This document shows positions 26,892-35,445 of a stretch of 38,318 bases of DNA, in pieces. Each line of letters starts with the position of its first letter. The stretch's first letter is position 1. Source of the DNA: an uncultured Mediterranea sp. (GTDB taxonomy: Bacteria > Bacteroidota > Bacteroidia > Bacteroidales > Bacteroidaceae); NCBI GenBank assembly GCA_939791845.1, contig CALNEX010000003.1, positions 1 to 38,318 of the forward strand, written 5' to 3'. Position numbers and translations under genes: made by a program. The notes under the pieces were generated by a model, which was not told where the DNA came from, did not search any database, and was given only the letters and a program-made list of their open reading frames with translations.

Positions 26892-27157
26892 TTATTGCTT
26901 GTTTATTAAATCATCGGTCCAATTCCGGATGGCATCCCGGCTTGCTCCGTTCAGCAATTTACCGTCCTGCCATTCCAAGTCGGGATATGTTCGTTTCAAT
27001 TCTTTCAGGCTATTGCTTATACTGCTACCACCGGAAGTGGCAAACGGTACGAGTGTCTTGCCTTTCAGGTCGTGGCTCTCAATGAATGTGTTGATGATTC
27101 GTGGAGCCTGGTCCCACCAAATGGGATAGCCGATGAAGATGACATCGTGGGCAACAA
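26892..27157 (-). pseudogene. Flavodoxin-like protein remnant (C-terminal part only)
   Basis: Minus strand reads ...HDVIFIGYPIWWDQAPRIINTFIESHDLKGKTLVPFATSGGSSISNSLKELKRTYPDLEWQDGKLLNGASRDAIRNWTDDLINKQ*; the N-terminal FMN-loop half is missing, replaced by AT-rich sequence. Confidence 0.85.
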
Positions 27158-27372: not shown

Positions 27373-28380
27373 TCAGACCGAATAGTATGGTATATCTGAA
27401 CCCCAAAAAATCAGAGAACTAATGTCTTTACCTCTTTCTGTCAATAGTTTTGCGACTGACCATAGTTGTCTTTCTTTATCAATAGTAGGTCCAACTGCTA
27501 TTATTTTTAGCGCATCTAATGGTAAGTCAACCTCAACATAAGGAAATAATAAGCCCTTGCGCTCACGAAAATATAATTCTTTATTGTTGAATTCCCTACA
27601 AATAAGCCTGTATTCATCTTCATACTTGTAGGAAGGGTTCTTTATTTTACAAGGAATTATGTTATACAAAGCGAAATAATTATACAGAGCAATATTGGAA
27701 TTCTCGTCTATTATTTTAATTTGATTAAAGTTTTGCTCAATGAATGTCATGGTTTGCTGATACATATACTTAACATATTCCTTCCATCGTTCCAATTCCT
27801 CGTTATTCATTTGCGAATCGGAAATACTTTCTCCTATTCCGTAAACGATTCCATCCAATGTATCCATATTACGAGATTTTAAGTATTCATTGACACTCTT
27901 TAAGTCGAATCCAAGGCATATTCCGTTGCAATCTTGTCCATACATTTTCCACATAGGAAGAGTATCAAATGTTTTAGAAAAAGAAACTGAATATACATTT
28001 ACCAGACTTTTTCTTTCCAGACTTTTAATTTTGACGAATTTATTTAATTCATCTCTATCAAGTTCGGTAATCCGCTTCACTTTGGGGATGGATAAATCAT
28101 TTTCAACATCCTTCAGTACCTCCCACATTTTATCAACACCATACTTTCGTTCTTCTTTATCATTCATGTACGAAATATGCGATGCCCAAAAAGTTAAATG
28201 CGCATTTTCTTTAGTTGTGTTTTTAAGCATACCTATTAGCGCTCCTGCTGTTGTATAGTGAAAAACACAGGACGATGCTACTTGTTGAACTTCAATTAAA
28301 TTTGAGATTGCTTTCTTTTTAACCTCTTCTGCCTCCAATGCTTTCAACCTCTGTAAGCTTTTTTTTTCTTCATTATTCAT
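27373..28380 (-). CDS. DUF2971 domain-containing protein
   Basis: CVFHYTTAGALIGMLKN...LTFWASHISYMNDKEERKYG...VYSVSFSKTFDTLPMWKMYGQDCNGICLGFDL, typical DUF2971. ATG at 28380 (the track used a TTG at 28413). Confidence 0.82.
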   Translation of the reverse strand: MNNEEKKSLQRLKALEAEEVKKKAISNLIEVQQVASSCVFHYTTAGALIGMLKNTTKENAHLTFWASHISYMNDKEERKYGVDKMWEVLKDVENDLSIPKVKRITELDRDELNKFVKIKSLERKSLVNVYSVSFSKTFDTLPMWKMYGQDCNGICLGFDLKSVNEYLKSRNMDTLDGIVYGIGESISDSQMNNEELERWKEYVKYMYQQTMTFIEQNFNQIKIIDENSNIALYNYFALYNIIPCKIKNPSYKYEDEYRLICREFNNKELYFRERKGLLFPYVEVDLPLDALKIIAVGPTIDKERQLWSVAKLLTERGKDISSLIFWGSDIPYYSV

Positions 28381-28413
28381 AGCTGATATTTCCGAAATCA
28401 AATATTTACACAA

Positions 28414-31400
28414 TCAGTCATTATACAGTTCATTTATGAACTTATTAAGCCGCTGTTCTATATCATCGGTATTCCTATTTTCTCTTTTTAGGGCAATGAT
28501 TTGTTTTACTAAATCTTCAATAACCTTTTTTTGTTCAGGAGTAGGAATGACAATAGGCAGAGGTTTCAGCTTTTCCAACTTGACTTGTGGAAATACACGG
28601 CCTCCTTCTTTTACATTCTGCTCATAGATTTTCCTCATATAGTCCGAGTTGAGCAAACCGCATAGGTACTCATAAGATATTATACTCGTGTATTCAGCCT
28701 TAATCAAGCCTGCTTGAATACTGCGACCAAACCAAATGCCTCTATAGTCTATAGCGCATATTGGATATGGTGCTGTTTGCCGCCATATTAGTTTAGGGCA
28801 GATACAAAAATAATCTTCGTTTAGAATTACGCGTTCACCCTCTCGCAATGATATATTCGTGCGACAATATCTTGATGTATGCTCTGCTATACTGAAGCTG
28901 TTTATATCAACGCCTTTCCAGTATTCAACATCTATTTCAGACTCTTTTTTTCCTACATACAATAACCTTGAGCTTAAATCAGACTTACCTTTTTGGGATA
29001 GTCCTACTTTTACACGTTGATAGTTTATTCCTGCATCCTTAAATCTCAATATGGAATCAAGCTCCACTGTGGTTTCTGATAGTTTTTCATATTTTCCTAT
29101 GAAACTATTATTTCTTGTTTCCATCCAATATTGTTGTACAATATTATCCAGTTTAAGTTGATTAAGTTGTTCTTTTGCATTTTGAACAGTAATAGACGCA
29201 GTTAAATCTGCAAATAGCGTTGTATTATTGACTGCTTCAAAATTTTTGGAAAGACAAATAGCTACCGGAACAACAGCATCAACAAATATATTCTCCCCAA
29301 GGTCAATGATTTGCATAATAGTTGTTTTTAGCAAAATTCTTCTTAAGTCACCATATCGAGGTTGTCTAAGAAATGTATTGGGAGTAATAAAACATACTAT
29401 CCCATTTTCCGCACAAATAGAAAAACTAAAATCATAGAAGTACTTATAAATATCCTTGTACCCATGCGATGTCTCCGGGTATAACTTTTCATAGACTTGG
29501 ATTAAGTCATCTATGTTGGCACCATACGGCGGATTTCCAATCACAATATCAAAGCCATTTTTCCTGCTCTCTCTGCTGAACACATCACTAAACCATGTAT
29601 GCCAAAGGAAAAACTGCTCATTTCCGGCAAGGTTGATTTGCTGGAGTTGGGCAAGAATTTTAGTATCTATTGCCTGTACTTCAAGTTGTTCATTGATTGT
29701 ACGAGCGATTCTGTTTTGCAACCCTACTTTCCGTTCATGGTCAGAACAAGAATAGTAGGACAACAGAAGTTGTAATACAATTTTCTGGAGTTTGTTCTTT
29801 TCATCATCAAACAGTGACACCACGCCCTTGTCCTTACTGTTTTCCCGTTCGTATGTCAGTTTACTCAAATCCACGCCCATGAAACTCTCAATAAGCGAAT
29901 TGCCCTGCATGATTTTGTAGTCGAGGTTAGGGAGTGGGGACGGTGTTTCCTCATCTACCACAATGGAAAGCCAAAAGCGCAACCGTGCTATGTCTATCGC
30001 CCCTTTGTCAATATCCACGCCGTAGATGTTGTTTTGGATGATGCTTTTCTTTATTTCCGCACGGTTGCAACGTTCGCCGGACAAGGCTTCACGGCAATGT
30101 AGCAATTCATTCAGCAACCCCATCGGAAAAGCCCCAGAACCAATGGCCGGGTCGCATATCTTGACGTTCTCCAATGCCGCAAGCAGTTTACTTCGTTTAT
30201 TCTCCGGGATATTGGCCACGGCTTCTTCCGGTGAGGTTACAAATGCACGCACTTTGTCACTTGCTATGGATGTCTCGGCATCCAAATAGGCGATGAGTGA
30301 TTCCTGGCACATATACCTCACAATCTCCTTAGGAGTGTAGAACGCTCCCTTATCCTTGTTGTCCTCCAACAGGTTCTCGAAAATCTTGCCAAGCATTTCA
30401 GGGTCAACGCCAATAACCGCATCGTTGGGGTCGTTCTCATCCACCGTGAAGTTGTATTCGCTGAAGAATTGGAACAGCCGTCGGAAATATTCTGCGGGGA
30501 ACACACTTTCCGGTTCATCGTCCTCGTCACGCTCAAACAGTCCTCCGTTCAAATAAGGGATGTCTTTCCACTCGGCAAGCAGCGATTTATCCCAACCGAA
30601 CGAATCAAACAAAGCCTTCCTTTCGTTCGGTTTAGTGTTCAATATCCCGAAAAACAACGGTTCGAGAACGGAGTCCAAATAGTCGTCCTGATAAGAGGAA
30701 CGTTCAAACAGATTCTGCATATAGTTCAAGTCGCCATTCATCCATCTTTTACGCTGCAAGAAATGGAGGAACGTAATGCGCCCCATCATTTTCTTGATGT
30801 AATCACGTATCTTCTTCTCGTTGTTTCCGAAAGCCTGCATCAACGCAGGATTGGGGTCGCTTAATGTCTTTTCCTGCCATTTGTTGCCAACTTTGATGAA
30901 TCGCTTTCCGGTAACATACTGTATGAAGTCGGCATACTGCTCACGGTATCTGTCAAAGAACTCATCAGACAAAGCCTCCACTGAAAATGCAGTCCGCAAG
31001 CTGTTGAATGATATGCCGGATTTTACCAAATACTTGAAACGCTCAATAGGCGTTTTGTACAACAGTTCGTTGCTTCCGAAAACGTATGTATAACGCTTAG
31101 GGGCTGTAGCCTCCCCTTTGATGTCGCAAATGAACGAAAGCCGCCAATGGTCTCCACTGTCGAAAACCGCCAACGCCGCATCGAAATTTCCTATACGGGG
31201 ATTGATGAATGACTTGACAAGGTTTCTAAGTCCCACATGCTTGTTGGCCACAGTCCCTTTATCAATGGTATAACGGAACAATCCTATGCGATAACTGTCA
31301 GGAGTGTCTATGCACCCTAAATAATATCCGTTGCCAAAGTTGTTTTCCACTTCCTCCGGCATCTGCCTCAATTCAGTTGCATGGAAAAAATATAGCAAAA

Positions 31401-31473
31401 GTTCATTCCAATCTTCTGCATCGAACGGTGATTGGAAAATGCTTCTCAATTTTTCGTCAGTATATGCTTGCAT
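28414..31473 (-). CDS. Eco57I-type N6-adenine DNA methyltransferase / restriction-modification protein (1019 aa)
   Basis: Motif I DPAIGSGAFPMGLLNELL (about 30127-30153) and motif IV NPPYG (about 29524-29535); C-terminal region resembles TaqI/Eco57I target-recognition domains (LKPLPIVIPTPEQKKVIEDLVKQII). Confidence 0.9.
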   Translation of the reverse strand: MQAYTDEKLRSIFQSPFDAEDWNELLLYFFHATELRQMPEEVENNFGNGYYLGCIDTPDSYRIGLFRYTIDKGTVANKHVGLRNLVKSFINPRIGNFDAALAVFDSGDHWRLSFICDIKGEATAPKRYTYVFGSNELLYKTPIERFKYLVKSGISFNSLRTAFSVEALSDEFFDRYREQYADFIQYVTGKRFIKVGNKWQEKTLSDPNPALMQAFGNNEKKIRDYIKKMMGRITFLHFLQRKRWMNGDLNYMQNLFERSSYQDDYLDSVLEPLFFGILNTKPNERKALFDSFGWDKSLLAEWKDIPYLNGGLFERDEDDEPESVFPAEYFRRLFQFFSEYNFTVDENDPNDAVIGVDPEMLGKIFENLLEDNKDKGAFYTPKEIVRYMCQESLIAYLDAETSIASDKVRAFVTSPEEAVANIPENKRSKLLAALENVKICDPAIGSGAFPMGLLNELLHCREALSGERCNRAEIKKSIIQNNIYGVDIDKGAIDIARLRFWLSIVVDEETPSPLPNLDYKIMQGNSLIESFMGVDLSKLTYERENSKDKGVVSLFDDEKNKLQKIVLQLLLSYYSCSDHERKVGLQNRIARTINEQLEVQAIDTKILAQLQQINLAGNEQFFLWHTWFSDVFSRESRKNGFDIVIGNPPYGANIDDLIQVYEKLYPETSHGYKDIYKYFYDFSFSICAENGIVCFITPNTFLRQPRYGDLRRILLKTTIMQIIDLGENIFVDAVVPVAICLSKNFEAVNNTTLFADLTASITVQNAKEQLNQLKLDNIVQQYWMETRNNSFIGKYEKLSETTVELDSILRFKDAGINYQRVKVGLSQKGKSDLSSRLLYVGKKESEIDVEYWKGVDINSFSIAEHTSRYCRTNISLREGERVILNEDYFCICPKLIWRQTAPYPICAIDYRGIWFGRSIQAGLIKAEYTSIISYEYLCGLLNSDYMRKIYEQNVKEGGRVFPQVKLEKLKPLPIVIPTPEQKKVIEDLVKQIIALKRENRNTDDIEQRLNKFINELYND

Positions 31474-31485
31474 GGCTTTTTCTTG

Positions 31486-34400
31486 TTAAATAAAGGTTTC
31501 TGAAATAATTATTTGTGGGGACGATGAATCGTCTCGACTTTTCTCTGCCCCCTGTGTCTTATACTCTTCTACCAGTGCATTGACTTCGGTTTGAAGCCTG
31601 TACTCGTCACTTCTCATCTTTGCCCGGTCCCCTTTGTACTCACGCGAAAGAGTTTTCAGGTAGCGCGGCAATTTGGCATAAACACCGTCATTGATATAGC
31701 CCATGAGTAGGTCACATTGCTCTTTCAGCTTGATGTCACCTGTCACTTGCTTGACCGACCTGAGGAAATTCCTTGCCTCAAGTGAGGTGCGGTCAAGGTC
31801 AGTTCTTTCTGCGGAGGCCGTATCGGCAGATTTTGTATATTCGGCCTCAAACATCCCCAATGCCTTGTTTACATGGATATAATGTTGGCCACTATCGGTA
31901 AAAGGCACAGCTTGTTCTTCCGGTTTGGCCTTCAGGTATTTCACCGCATCAAGAAAATCTACCGGCATAACCTTGTTGTCCTTTACCAAATAAAATTCAC
32001 TCTTTACGTCTGACGAAAGGAATACCACGGAACACCCGACATGCTTCCCTGTGCTGCGCAACACCCGGCTCTTCATCGGCAATGCCTTGATTTTGTGGTA
32101 AAGTTCACGGTTGGTGTTGTATAGCTCACGAACTTCGCGTATAAGTGCGATTTTCTTGTCCACGCTGTCCTTCACGTTGCTGTCGAACAGGGTGAACTGT
32201 TTGACAATTTCCTCGCGTGAATAGATTTGTGCGTCTTCCCCAAAAGCGGAATGGAAACCTTGCAGCTTGATAAGCGCGTTCTTATACAACTGGATTTCGT
32301 TGTCTCCCTGCTTTGATGGGTAAAACATATAATTGTAGATGTTCGGAGCGGACGAGCCGATACGGTTCACACGCCCTATGCGCTGCATAAGCCTTGTCGC
32401 ATTCCAAGGGGAATCATAATTGACTATGACATTCGACCTGTGAAGATTGACACCTTCGGCCAGCACGTCTGATGTAAGGATTATGTTGTACTGTCCGGCA
32501 TCCGTTGAAGTGTTAGCATCGAAATTGTCCTTGATGGCTTGCTTCAAACGGTCACGGTTGGAGGCTGTTACCATCAGAATATCCTTACGTCCAAGTCCTT
32601 TTGTCAGCCTGCCATACAAATAAGACAGCGTATCAACGCTTTCAGAGAACACTACCAACTTGCCTGTCGGGTTGATGCCCGGGTCAAGGAACTCATGCTT
32701 CAACCGTTGAACGAACAGGTCGAATTTGGGGTCTTCATGCTCTTTCGCCCATTCAGCATTCAGCTTTTCCAATATTGCTTTATCATGCTGGAGCATGTCA
32801 AGAAACTCAGGGCGGAAAGCATCTTTCTTGAATAGAATTTCCTCTTCCGAGTACCCTTTATCCAGAGCAATTTCAATGATTTGGTCGAGTTCAAGCCCGC
32901 TTGCCAGCAGACCCTTCACATTCAGTTCCGGGGCAATGATAACCTTGTCCCTGTCGAACATCATAATCATGTCGTTGGTGATGCGCAAGAGTGTGACGAG
33001 CGACTTATTAAATGCGTAGAAACTGCTTTCGAGCCGCTTCACCATGTGGACACGGTATATTCCGGCCAAAGTCTGTCCGATATGCTCCGCATTTTTGTAC
33101 CGCTTTCGATATTCCTCTTTCAAGTATTCAACCGCACGGTAACGGGCATAGTACAAACCTGCCCCATTAGGGTTGTCTTCTGTTTTGAAATCTGTCAGTT
33201 GCCTGAGTGTTTCATAGAACCGGGAGCTTGTGTCGGGCTTCATCTGGTACTCCAATTCATTAGGAGGCAAGATATGAGGAAATACTATGCCTTGGAGCTT
33301 TATGTCTTCTTTATAGTCCGGGTCGTTCAAGATATTGTTCCTTGTCCGGCGCACAGTAACCTTGTCGATTACGCCATTCCTTATCTTTTCATATATTTTG
33401 TCCACTTCCGCCGTTACATCGCGGCTATCCCTTTCGCGCATCAACTTGTTGTATTCCTGTATCAAAGGAGAAAAGAAGCCTTTGAGGTTGGGGATTCCGT
33501 CAATGGTACAGCTTTGACTGTTTTGGAACAGAAGCAACAAGTTCTGCAAATCATCCGGGCGGTTGTTCAAAGGGGTAGCAGACAGAAGCATGACTTTTTT
33601 CTGCGTACTTTTCAGCAAACCCATGTTGGCGCATGGTGACTTGCATATCTTCTGTAGTTCATCATATTTGCCTGAATTGTCACTACGGAACCCGTGGGCT
33701 TCGTCCACTATAATCAGGTCGAATTCCTCCTTGTCCTTGTATTGGTCACGCCCTTCCAAAATCTTCGACAGACTGCCGTTGGTAATGAATTGTGCTTTCT
33801 TGGTTATGCCGAACAGCTTGAATGCTTCTTTCCAGTTGCTTTCCAATGTCGGTGGATAAACGACCAGCACATTCGTATGCTTGCCGTTGGCCTCAATGAA
33901 CCGCTTGGCTATCATGGTGGCAATCATGGTCTTCCCTAATCCCACGACATCCGCCAAAAACAGACCGTTGTGTTTCAACAGTATCTGATAGCCTTGTATG
34001 ACCGCATCTTTTTGGTATTTCAGTTCCTTTATTCCGTCGGGCAGTTCGATTGAAAAGTCATCTTCCACTTGGTCGCCAAAGGTTTCAATCAACACTTTGA
34101 TGTAAAGCTCGTATGGCGTGGGCTGATAACCCAAGTATGTTTTTCCTTTATAGGCGGCTATGTCACCCGTGGTCAAAGGAATTGCCTCTTCCCACAACTT
34201 GTTGAACTCGTCATGGCAATATTTCACATCATCAAAATCTTTCATGGCCACGTTCAATTCATAACGAGGGGATTGGGTTATGCCCAAACCAGATTCCGAT
34301 ATGTTGGAAGAACCCATAATGACCCAACCGTCACTGTTCTCATTATGATTTCGAGGCAGACATAAATAGAATTTCGCATGAAGATTCTTCGTGGCATGAA

Positions 34401-34773
34401 TCCTCATCTGCAAACGTCCGCTGGAAAGGTCGTCGCACATCTGCAAGATGCCTGCCTCCACTTCGGGTGCATACCTGGCATCTATGATGTCCTGCTTGAA
34501 CTCTTGGAAATATTTTTCTTTTGCCTCGCCCTCCTTGCCCAACATCAACAAGGCTTTGTTGTGCTTGCGGAATATGTCGTCAATGTTTATACCTACCAGT
34601 ATCTTGATTTCTGAAATATCCCCCAGTTCATCCCTCAGTTTGAAATAGCCGGATGAACGGAAGAAACCGACAACAGCAAGAAACCTGTTGAATGTCGCCA
34701 TCTCCTTGGCAATACCTTTCAGTTTGTCGAAAAGCGTATTGCCTATGCCGTTATTGAAGAATTTTGTACTCAT
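31486..34773 (-). CDS. PLD-like nuclease domain fused to SNF2-family DEAH helicase
   Basis: N-terminal PLD motif LHAKFYLCLPRN...GSSNISESGL; helicase DVVGLGKTMIATMIAK (about 33928), VDEAH (about 33694-33705), LLSATPLNNRPDD, LMQRIGRVNRIGS. Start at 34773 because a promoter element lies within the longer ORF. Confidence 0.9.
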   Translation of the reverse strand: MSTKFFNNGIGNTLFDKLKGIAKEMATFNRFLAVVGFFRSSGYFKLRDELGDISEIKILVGINIDDIFRKHNKALLMLGKEGEAKEKYFQEFKQDIIDARYAPEVEAGILQMCDDLSSGRLQMRIHATKNLHAKFYLCLPRNHNENSDGWVIMGSSNISESGLGITQSPRYELNVAMKDFDDVKYCHDEFNKLWEEAIPLTTGDIAAYKGKTYLGYQPTPYELYIKVLIETFGDQVEDDFSIELPDGIKELKYQKDAVIQGYQILLKHNGLFLADVVGLGKTMIATMIAKRFIEANGKHTNVLVVYPPTLESNWKEAFKLFGITKKAQFITNGSLSKILEGRDQYKDKEEFDLIIVDEAHGFRSDNSGKYDELQKICKSPCANMGLLKSTQKKVMLLSATPLNNRPDDLQNLLLLFQNSQSCTIDGIPNLKGFFSPLIQEYNKLMRERDSRDVTAEVDKIYEKIRNGVIDKVTVRRTRNNILNDPDYKEDIKLQGIVFPHILPPNELEYQMKPDTSSRFYETLRQLTDFKTEDNPNGAGLYYARYRAVEYLKEEYRKRYKNAEHIGQTLAGIYRVHMVKRLESSFYAFNKSLVTLLRITNDMIMMFDRDKVIIAPELNVKGLLASGLELDQIIEIALDKGYSEEEILFKKDAFRPEFLDMLQHDKAILEKLNAEWAKEHEDPKFDLFVQRLKHEFLDPGINPTGKLVVFSESVDTLSYLYGRLTKGLGRKDILMVTASNRDRLKQAIKDNFDANTSTDAGQYNIILTSDVLAEGVNLHRSNVIVNYDSPWNATRLMQRIGRVNRIGSSAPNIYNYMFYPSKQGDNEIQLYKNALIKLQGFHSAFGEDAQIYSREEIVKQFTLFDSNVKDSVDKKIALIREVRELYNTNRELYHKIKALPMKSRVLRSTGKHVGCSVVFLSSDVKSEFYLVKDNKVMPVDFLDAVKYLKAKPEEQAVPFTDSGQHYIHVNKALGMFEAEYTKSADTASAERTDLDRTSLEARNFLRSVKQVTGDIKLKEQCDLLMGYINDGVYAKLPRYLKTLSREYKGDRAKMRSDEYRLQTEVNALVEEYKTQGAEKSRDDSSSPQIIISETFI

Positions 34774-34805
34774 CTGAATATGTTGGCAACCCTGCCAAGA
34801 GAATA

Positions 34806-34998
34806 ATCTCTTGATAAGAGTTATAGTTAATATTGCAAAGATACGCATAATATTGCAAAATCTACGTTCCTTCCTCATTTATAATGGGATATGAAACGAT
34901 TTTTGTATGAAATTGTTTAGCTGATATGCCTGTGCGAATTTGTTAATATGCTGATTTGCAGTATTCTGATTTTTGGAATATATCTCTTATCAAGAGAT
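34806..34998. repeat. Pair of 15-bp inverted copies of ATCTCTTGATAAGAG (34806-34820 and 34984-34998), each itself a dyad; candidate operators
   Basis: Copy 2, CTCTTATCAAGAGAT, is the exact reverse complement of copy 1; each has CTCTT-nnn-AAGAG dyad symmetry. Confidence 0.7.
34836..34843 (-). promoter_or_regulatory. Bacteroides-type -7 promoter element for the helicase/methylase/DUF2971 operon
   Basis: CAAAGATA on + = TATCTTTG on -, 62 nt upstream of the ATG at 34773. Confidence 0.5.
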
Positions 34999-35038
34999 TC
35001 GGATTTACGCTAAACAGATTTCACCAAAGAACTTCCTG

Positions 35039-35445
35039 CTATAAGTCTTTCAGGATAAGGCTGTTTGCCTTGTCCACCGCGCTGTTGTCCAACGATGCAA
35101 GATAGATGCGCGTTGTTTCCTCCGAATCGTGCCCCATGCCCTCACTTATGACTGAAAGAGGGATATTCTTGCTCTTGGCCACACTTGCCCAGCAATGCCT
35201 CGCGCAGTGCATGGTCAGCTGTATCTGCAGTCCTGCCAGACGGGCGACTTCTTTCAATGCCACGTTGATGCGGCTGATGGCGTTCCTGTATTGTGTCCGC
35301 TCATTGGCATGTAGTTATTGTACACGTAGTCGAAGATGTAGCCGATGGCGATGTTGTGTGGATTCAACGCCGACACGTTTACACCCATGCGCCCCATCGG
35401 GCGGTATTGTAACAATCTTACGTATAATAAAATCCCAGCAATCAC
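35039..35445 (-). pseudogene. Degenerate tyrosine recombinase/integrase (C-terminal catalytic part, frameshifted and truncated)
   Basis: NERTQYRNAISRINVALKEVARLAGLQIQLTMHCARHCWASVAKSKNIPLSVISEGMGHDSEETTRIYLASLDNSAVDKANSLILKDL*; in-frame stop just upstream, and the adjacent coding-like segment GYIFDYVYNNYM is in another frame. Confidence 0.75.

Follow-up and report, generated by a model that had tools for sequence, protein, structure and literature searches.

HKD/PLD nuclease domains are combined with a superfamily 2 (SF2) helicase in CxC-ABC/Pbe systems (PMC10853773). In the type-2 BREX-related (BR) systems, an N-terminal HKD nuclease is fused to an SNF2 helicase and accompanied by an N6-methylase, and a restriction-modification (RM) function has been proposed (PMC12839542). 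Similar components are found in a 38,318-nucleotide (nt) stretch of DNA from an uncultured Mediterranea sp. of the Bacteroidaceae (assembly GCA_939791845.1, contig CALNEX010000003.1; the whole stretch is called the window here), where a helicase, an Eco57I-type adenine methylase and a DUF2971 protein are encoded in one operon. However, BR systems are built around a DUF499 ATPase and contain DUF3780 in 98% of cases, neither of which is present in the window locus, and the architecture of their methylase is different (DUF1156 and an inserted target-recognition domain, TRD; PMC12839542). An HKD + SNF2 architecture is also common to the window helicase, the PADLOC model C3a139 ('HKD+Snf2'), the DMS_other class, which is a loose catch-all model (PMC11811056), and NCBIfam NF042964 (phospholipase D-like anti-phage helicase), against which the window helicase scores 125 with a cut-off of 1100. 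DISARM uses the same ingredients, an SNF2 helicase (DrmD-like), an adenine methylase and a PLD domain, but the window has no DrmA helicase or DrmB (DUF1998), its PLD domain forms part of the helicase chain, its scores lie under the cut-offs and its operon holds no further genes. Similarly, the BREX proteins PglZ and BrxC were not found by family searches of the locus, in line with the original prediction for this DNA, which had listed drmA/drmB, pglZ and brxC partners as absent. Type ISP, I and III RM enzymes likewise pair an ATP-dependent motor and nuclease with an adenine methylase and an exchangeable recognition domain, whereas the window nuclease is of HKD and not PD-(D/E)XK type, does not share a chain with the methylase and comes without HsdS. 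Type IIG enzymes join nuclease and methylase in one chain; in the window the nuclease motif lies in the helicase.

The window probably encodes a two-subunit ATP-dependent RM system of the HKD-SNF2/Eco57I-methylase type, placed behind an invertible promoter and accompanied by DUF2971 as an accessory. Its elements, as predicted from sequence, are:

31486-34773, minus strand: putative helicase-nuclease, 1095 amino acids (aa), with an N-terminal HKD/PLD nuclease domain, an SNF2-type motor and a helicase C domain
28414-31473, minus strand: predicted Eco57I-type N6-adenine DNA methyltransferase, 1019 aa, with a C-terminal TaqI_C specificity domain
28417-29523, minus strand: interchangeable target-recognition part of the methylase (TRD, about residues 651-1019), placed by the identity drop against close relatives
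27373-28380, minus strand: DUF2971 protein of 335 aa, encoded by an optional third gene (Pfam PF11185, 1.4e-9; PADLOC PDC-S31, 1.4e-7)
34836-34843, minus strand: -7 box TATCTTTG of the Bacteroides-type operon promoter, assigned by sequence and pointing into the operon (ON)
34805-34825, no strand: 21-nt arm of the inverted repeat on the helicase side (proximal), with 95% complementarity to its distal partner
34979-34999, no strand: distal inverted repeat arm, partner of the proximal one
35042-35299, minus strand: tyrosine recombinase remnant, last 86 of 403 residues, presumed former invertase

The helicase contains the Pfam domains PLDc_2, ResIII, SNF2-rel_dom and Helicase_C, and the methylase matches Eco57I (3.4e-34) and TaqI_C (2.4e-13). 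The PADLOC models C3a139 (8e-46, covering residues 64-867 of a 1130-aa helicase open reading frame, ORF) and PDC-S31 recognise the helicase and the DUF2971 protein, whereas for the pair all matches to curated NCBIfam models stay below their cut-offs. The window helicase carries HxK, GSSN, GLGKT, DEAH, SATP and QRIGR, and the methylase DPAIGSGAF and NPPY; with the Pfam matches, these motifs back the original assignment of a PLD-SNF2 protein, an Eco57I methylase and a DUF2971 protein. In 59 relatives (28-80% identity), the helicase HxK/GSSN, Walker A, DEAH, SATP and QRIGR motifs are kept, as are DPAxGSGAF and NPPY in the methylase. A methylase with intact motifs thus adjoins a nuclease at 59 loci, as in an RM system. 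Because no nuclease signature is conserved family-wide in the methylase N-terminus (59 relatives), the helicase is likely to be the nuclease of the pair. A candidate nuclease in this N-terminus (FDAAL...CDIK) occurs in close relatives, is not conserved in distant ones and is not proposed here.

The pair is widespread. When traced through Bacteroidaceae genomes, GTDB contigs and a phylum-wide Bacteroidota sample, the helicase family is found in 33/396 Bacteroidota genomes from 25 genera, and at 28-80% helicase identity it is followed nearly everywhere, in Bacteroidaceae and Bacteroidota loci alike, by a co-directional methylase, sometimes with one intervening gene. The specificity of the pair appears to be exchangeable. 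Among helicases 73-91% identical to that of the window, most loci (helicase at least 73%) have methylase residues 1-640 about 77% identical, and after NPPY (about residues 651-1019) identity drops to ~15-25%. Two loci with helicases 99% identical have TRDs of only 22% identity (L065 and L071), while L065 shares a TRD with L046 (88%) at 87% helicase identity. L065 comes from Leyella lascolaii khD1 and L071 from Parabacteroides faecalis AGMB00274, both cultured carriers. The window, L037 and L071 have a common TRD (70-74% identity), and in L043, L047, L048 and L049 the entire methylase has been swapped. At the level of sequence, this pattern is the signature of exchangeable sequence specificity, conferred in RM systems by a recognition domain that can be replaced. 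The original proposal of a DNA-modification defence system, here of RM type, is supported by these features.

The promoter of the operon lies between inverted repeats, with 153 nt between the arms, and its -7 box is situated 10 nt from the proximal arm. Related loci contain a similar promoter core in mirrored form, pointing away from the operon (OFF), between arms of a 15-nt repeat that are 160 nt (L037) or 145 nt (L065 and L071) apart; the repeat sequences of these switches differ from that of the window. In Markov shuffles, an inverted-repeat score of at least 15, the lower score, was reached in 0/1460 trials (P < 1/1460). No further copy of the window's repeat is present elsewhere in the genome (63%-complete assembly). 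A switch of this type, with the consensus TCTCTT..AAGAGA, lies immediately downstream of the gene for an intact tyrosine recombinase (400-403 aa) in L037, L071, L249, L250 and L251. Inversion is seen at a homologous switch that occurs in both orientations, in L265 on the one hand and L261, L262 and L264 on the other: the flanks are 95-100% identical and the interior matches only when reverse-complemented (94%). The same switch precedes the helicase in L065 and L071 (93-99% identity, orientation allowed for). The window recombinase remnant shares 92% identity with its intact counterpart in L249 (Phage_integrase, 6.2e-8 on 35039-35263); the protein is intact in L037 and L071. The window operon would therefore seem to be, or to have been, phase-variable, and it is ON in the present assembly. 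Because only the last 86 recombinase residues are left, the switch may be frozen ON. Two more full-length members of the recombinase family are encoded elsewhere in the genome, and they could act in trans only if they recognised the window repeat. The inverted repeats and the recombinase remnant (34805-35299), like the interchangeable recognition domain, had been overlooked in the original prediction.

A mechanism in which invertible promoters control methyltransferases has been suggested (PMC10333322). Invertons with tyrosine invertases are known in Bacteroidales, and switches of the window's type resemble them in having a promoter between inverted repeats next to a tyrosine recombinase (a remnant in the window), with MobC and a relaxase nearby (PMC11892184). 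However, the RM example among those invertons inverts hsdS coding sequence, whereas the window has an ON/OFF promoter before a whole RM operon, and cassettes related to that of the window front different RM types: the helicase-methylase pair in L037 and L071, a type ISP enzyme in L249, a fusion of helicase and methylase in L250, and in L251 a distant pair with an HKD helicase. In L249, L250 and L037, genes for a small MobC-like protein, a MobA-type relaxase and a 260-aa protein come before the recombinase and switch. Such cassettes of MobC, relaxase, 260-aa protein, recombinase and invertible promoter (L249, L250, L251, L037) may serve as mobilisable carriers in which RM operons are interchangeable. 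Thirty related recombinases in other genomes are mostly followed by a repeat-flanked segment, and some of these front non-RM genes. In L259, L268, L281 and others, a recombinase of this family and a repeat-flanked promoter stand before non-RM genes, by eye including a sigma-factor-like gene and a short-chain dehydrogenase.

DUF2971 is found in a wide range of contexts. Its invariant residues include N73-D74, W144, Y147, K247 and E254-x-E256-x-R258, and a literature search returned no functional description of the family. In a sample of 40 DUF2971 loci drawn regardless of RM, RM genes adjoin it in at least 10. The neighbours are type I genes (HsdS in L147 and L153; HsdM in L152, L175 and, from matching layout, L176; HsdR one gene off in L159), a type III Res gene with a 4-nt overlap (L158), a methylase-S gene with PDDEXK (L151), an Eco57I gene one gene off (L155) and an AAA_5/DUF2357-PDDEXK pair that is McrBC-like (L166). 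In L157, L158 and L166, DUF2971 stands in operons behind Schlafen-like, type III Res and McrBC-like genes, respectively. AlbA_2/Schlafen-like ATPase genes lie beside DUF2971 in L157 and L159, and in L097 such a gene is found upstream of a distant pair of helicase and methylase. Two AlphaFold models, one for the window protein (pLDDT 79) and one for a shorter homologue (pLDDT 80), were compared with the PDB by Foldseek. For the window protein, six of the first seven matches are the DNA ADP-ribosyltransferase DarT and the other is Tpt1, which has the ADP-ribosyltransferase (ART) fold; for the homologue, the first five are all DarT. Both sets of matches are weak (E-values >0.005, low TM-scores), and DarT is thus the leading fold neighbour of the two models without significant profile similarity. 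No partner antitoxin gene adjoins the window DUF2971, and a search of viral contigs with its sequence and with alignments A1 and A4 gave nothing usable. These models tentatively suggest an ADP-ribosyltransferase effector, as a lead and not a result.

The three genes had been predicted to form one defence system. Conservation extends to the helicase-methylase pair only, with DUF2971 as an optional, recurrent addition. Among 52 Bacteroidaceae loci readable beyond the methylase, DUF2971 is next after the pair in five (the window, L037, L041, L046 and L074), which belong to several divergent lineages, and 24 have no co-directional ORF of at least 100 aa within 200 nt behind the pair. The DUF2971 proteins of the other four loci share 18-57% identity with that of the window. 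Hence a true three-component system with DUF2971 as essential partner is quite unlikely: it has in its favour the tight spacing in the window, the fact that the methylase and DUF2971 genes overlap by 4 nt in L074, and the recurrence of DUF2971, which occurs behind the pair in 4/51 other loci (P ~4e-11 against random placement at ~0.3 genes per genome, a null that ignores clustering in defence islands), but DUF2971 is missing in 47/52 pairs, L071 shares the window's TRD and yet has no DUF2971, and the phylum-wide sample contains no DUF2971 adjoining the pair. As a conserved unit the trio is ruled out by these loci and by that sample; of the co-occurrence across genomes raised with the original prediction, the pair holds and the trio does not. 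The pair also often abuts an opposite-strand gene (L034, L039, L042, L044, L065), which fits a self-contained unit. The locus might instead be chiefly a phase-variable epigenetic regulator, in which switching of the methylase alters gene expression and restriction is secondary or lost. The invertible promoter and exchangeable TRD would suit such a role, but it is unlikely given that the HKD and helicase catalytic residues are kept in 59/59 relatives and that the switch drives helicase and methylase together. Descent from a DISARM- or BREX-like system by loss of partners is very improbable. Matches do exist to a DrmD-like helicase model (NCBIfam, 4e-45) and, for the methylase, to a PglX-like core (1.2e-31), and BrxX is a PDB relative across part of the methylase; however, the scores fall far under the curated cut-offs (154 vs 610 bits and 110 vs 500, respectively), and the occurrence of the helicase family in 25 genera, with the same two-gene core in the sampled loci, argues against local loss. 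Membership in DISARM or BREX was rejected, as the partners are missing and the scores lie under the cut-offs.

For DUF2971 itself, which had been singled out as the least-explained part and remains so, there is about an even chance that it serves in regulation, immunity or anti-restriction, or is carried as a passenger in defence islands, any of which is compatible with the RM reading of the pair. Its neighbours include many unrelated genes and its profile has no significant link to a known toxin, but the invariant residues (ExExR, W and Y) point to an enzyme, and DUF2971 is the only Pfam family found directly behind the pair in more than one locus. Several observations weigh against the reading of the locus as a switched RM system with an effector-like accessory. 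The window's own switch is seen in one orientation (ON) only, in a 63%-complete assembly of 190 contigs, and its -33 element matches the Bacteroides consensus poorly. DUF2971 also adjoins non-defence genes, such as those for leucine-rich repeat (LRR) surface proteins, and other unrelated genes. The DarT matches from Foldseek have E-values of only ~0.01-0.2 and low TM-scores. Nor does hhalign give a significant alignment between DUF2971 and DarT profiles, the sole local match being the first strand and helix. A broader proposal is doubtful but possible: that DUF2971 is a general family of DarT-fold ADP-ribosyltransferases, a fail-safe repeatedly recruited by RM types (HKD-SNF2, type I, type III, McrBC-like), and that the RM core here moves as a module, placed behind an ON/OFF promoter cassette that is mobilisable and takes different RM systems.

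The operon forms an island between prfC and clpB with a G+C content of 34-47%, against 52-68% across most of the remaining contig, and its three genes are the only intact genes with a family assignment in this interval. Tight packing in one AT-rich minus-strand operon had been noted originally and agrees with gaps of 12 nt between helicase and methylase and 33 nt between methylase and DUF2971 (ATG at 28380; an alternative DUF2971 ORF with a TTG start extends to 28413). A longer helicase ORF extends to 34878, but ATG 34773 is the likelier start because a start at 34878 would lie upstream of the promoter -7 box. In relatives searched for an empty site, prfC is kept but clpB is not within reach after it, and the insertion boundary was not located. 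Directly downstream of the operon, a truncated flavodoxin-like coding remnant (26899-27150, minus strand, by eye) is possibly the left edge of the island.

In the mechanism proposed for the switched pair, transcription would begin within the invertible segment, ON in the present assembly, and could be locked ON with the local invertase reduced to a remnant unless another recombinase acts in trans. The C-terminal domain of the methylase would read a short DNA motif and the adenine of self DNA would be methylated, while the SNF2 motor and N-terminal HKD nuclease would cut unmarked DNA, probably directed by the methylase recognition domain. DUF2971 would be an accessory that several types of RM locus have recruited, tentatively a DarT-like ADP-ribosyltransferase serving as backup effector when restriction fails. 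Within the literature searched, with most subscription papers and preprints outside its reach, the pair as a TRD-swapping unit, the ON/OFF cassette common to other RM types and the link of DUF2971 to several RM types appear to be new. The analysis separates the fixed part of a widespread Bacteroidota defence pair, the HKD-SNF2 motor and adenine methylase, from the parts that are swapped, the recognition domain, third gene and promoter cassette, and it yields a testable hypothesis for DUF2971 function. It also suggests that whole RM operons in Bacteroidota can be turned ON and OFF at the population level, and this would bear on phage sensitivity, on plasmid uptake and on the typing of methylomes.

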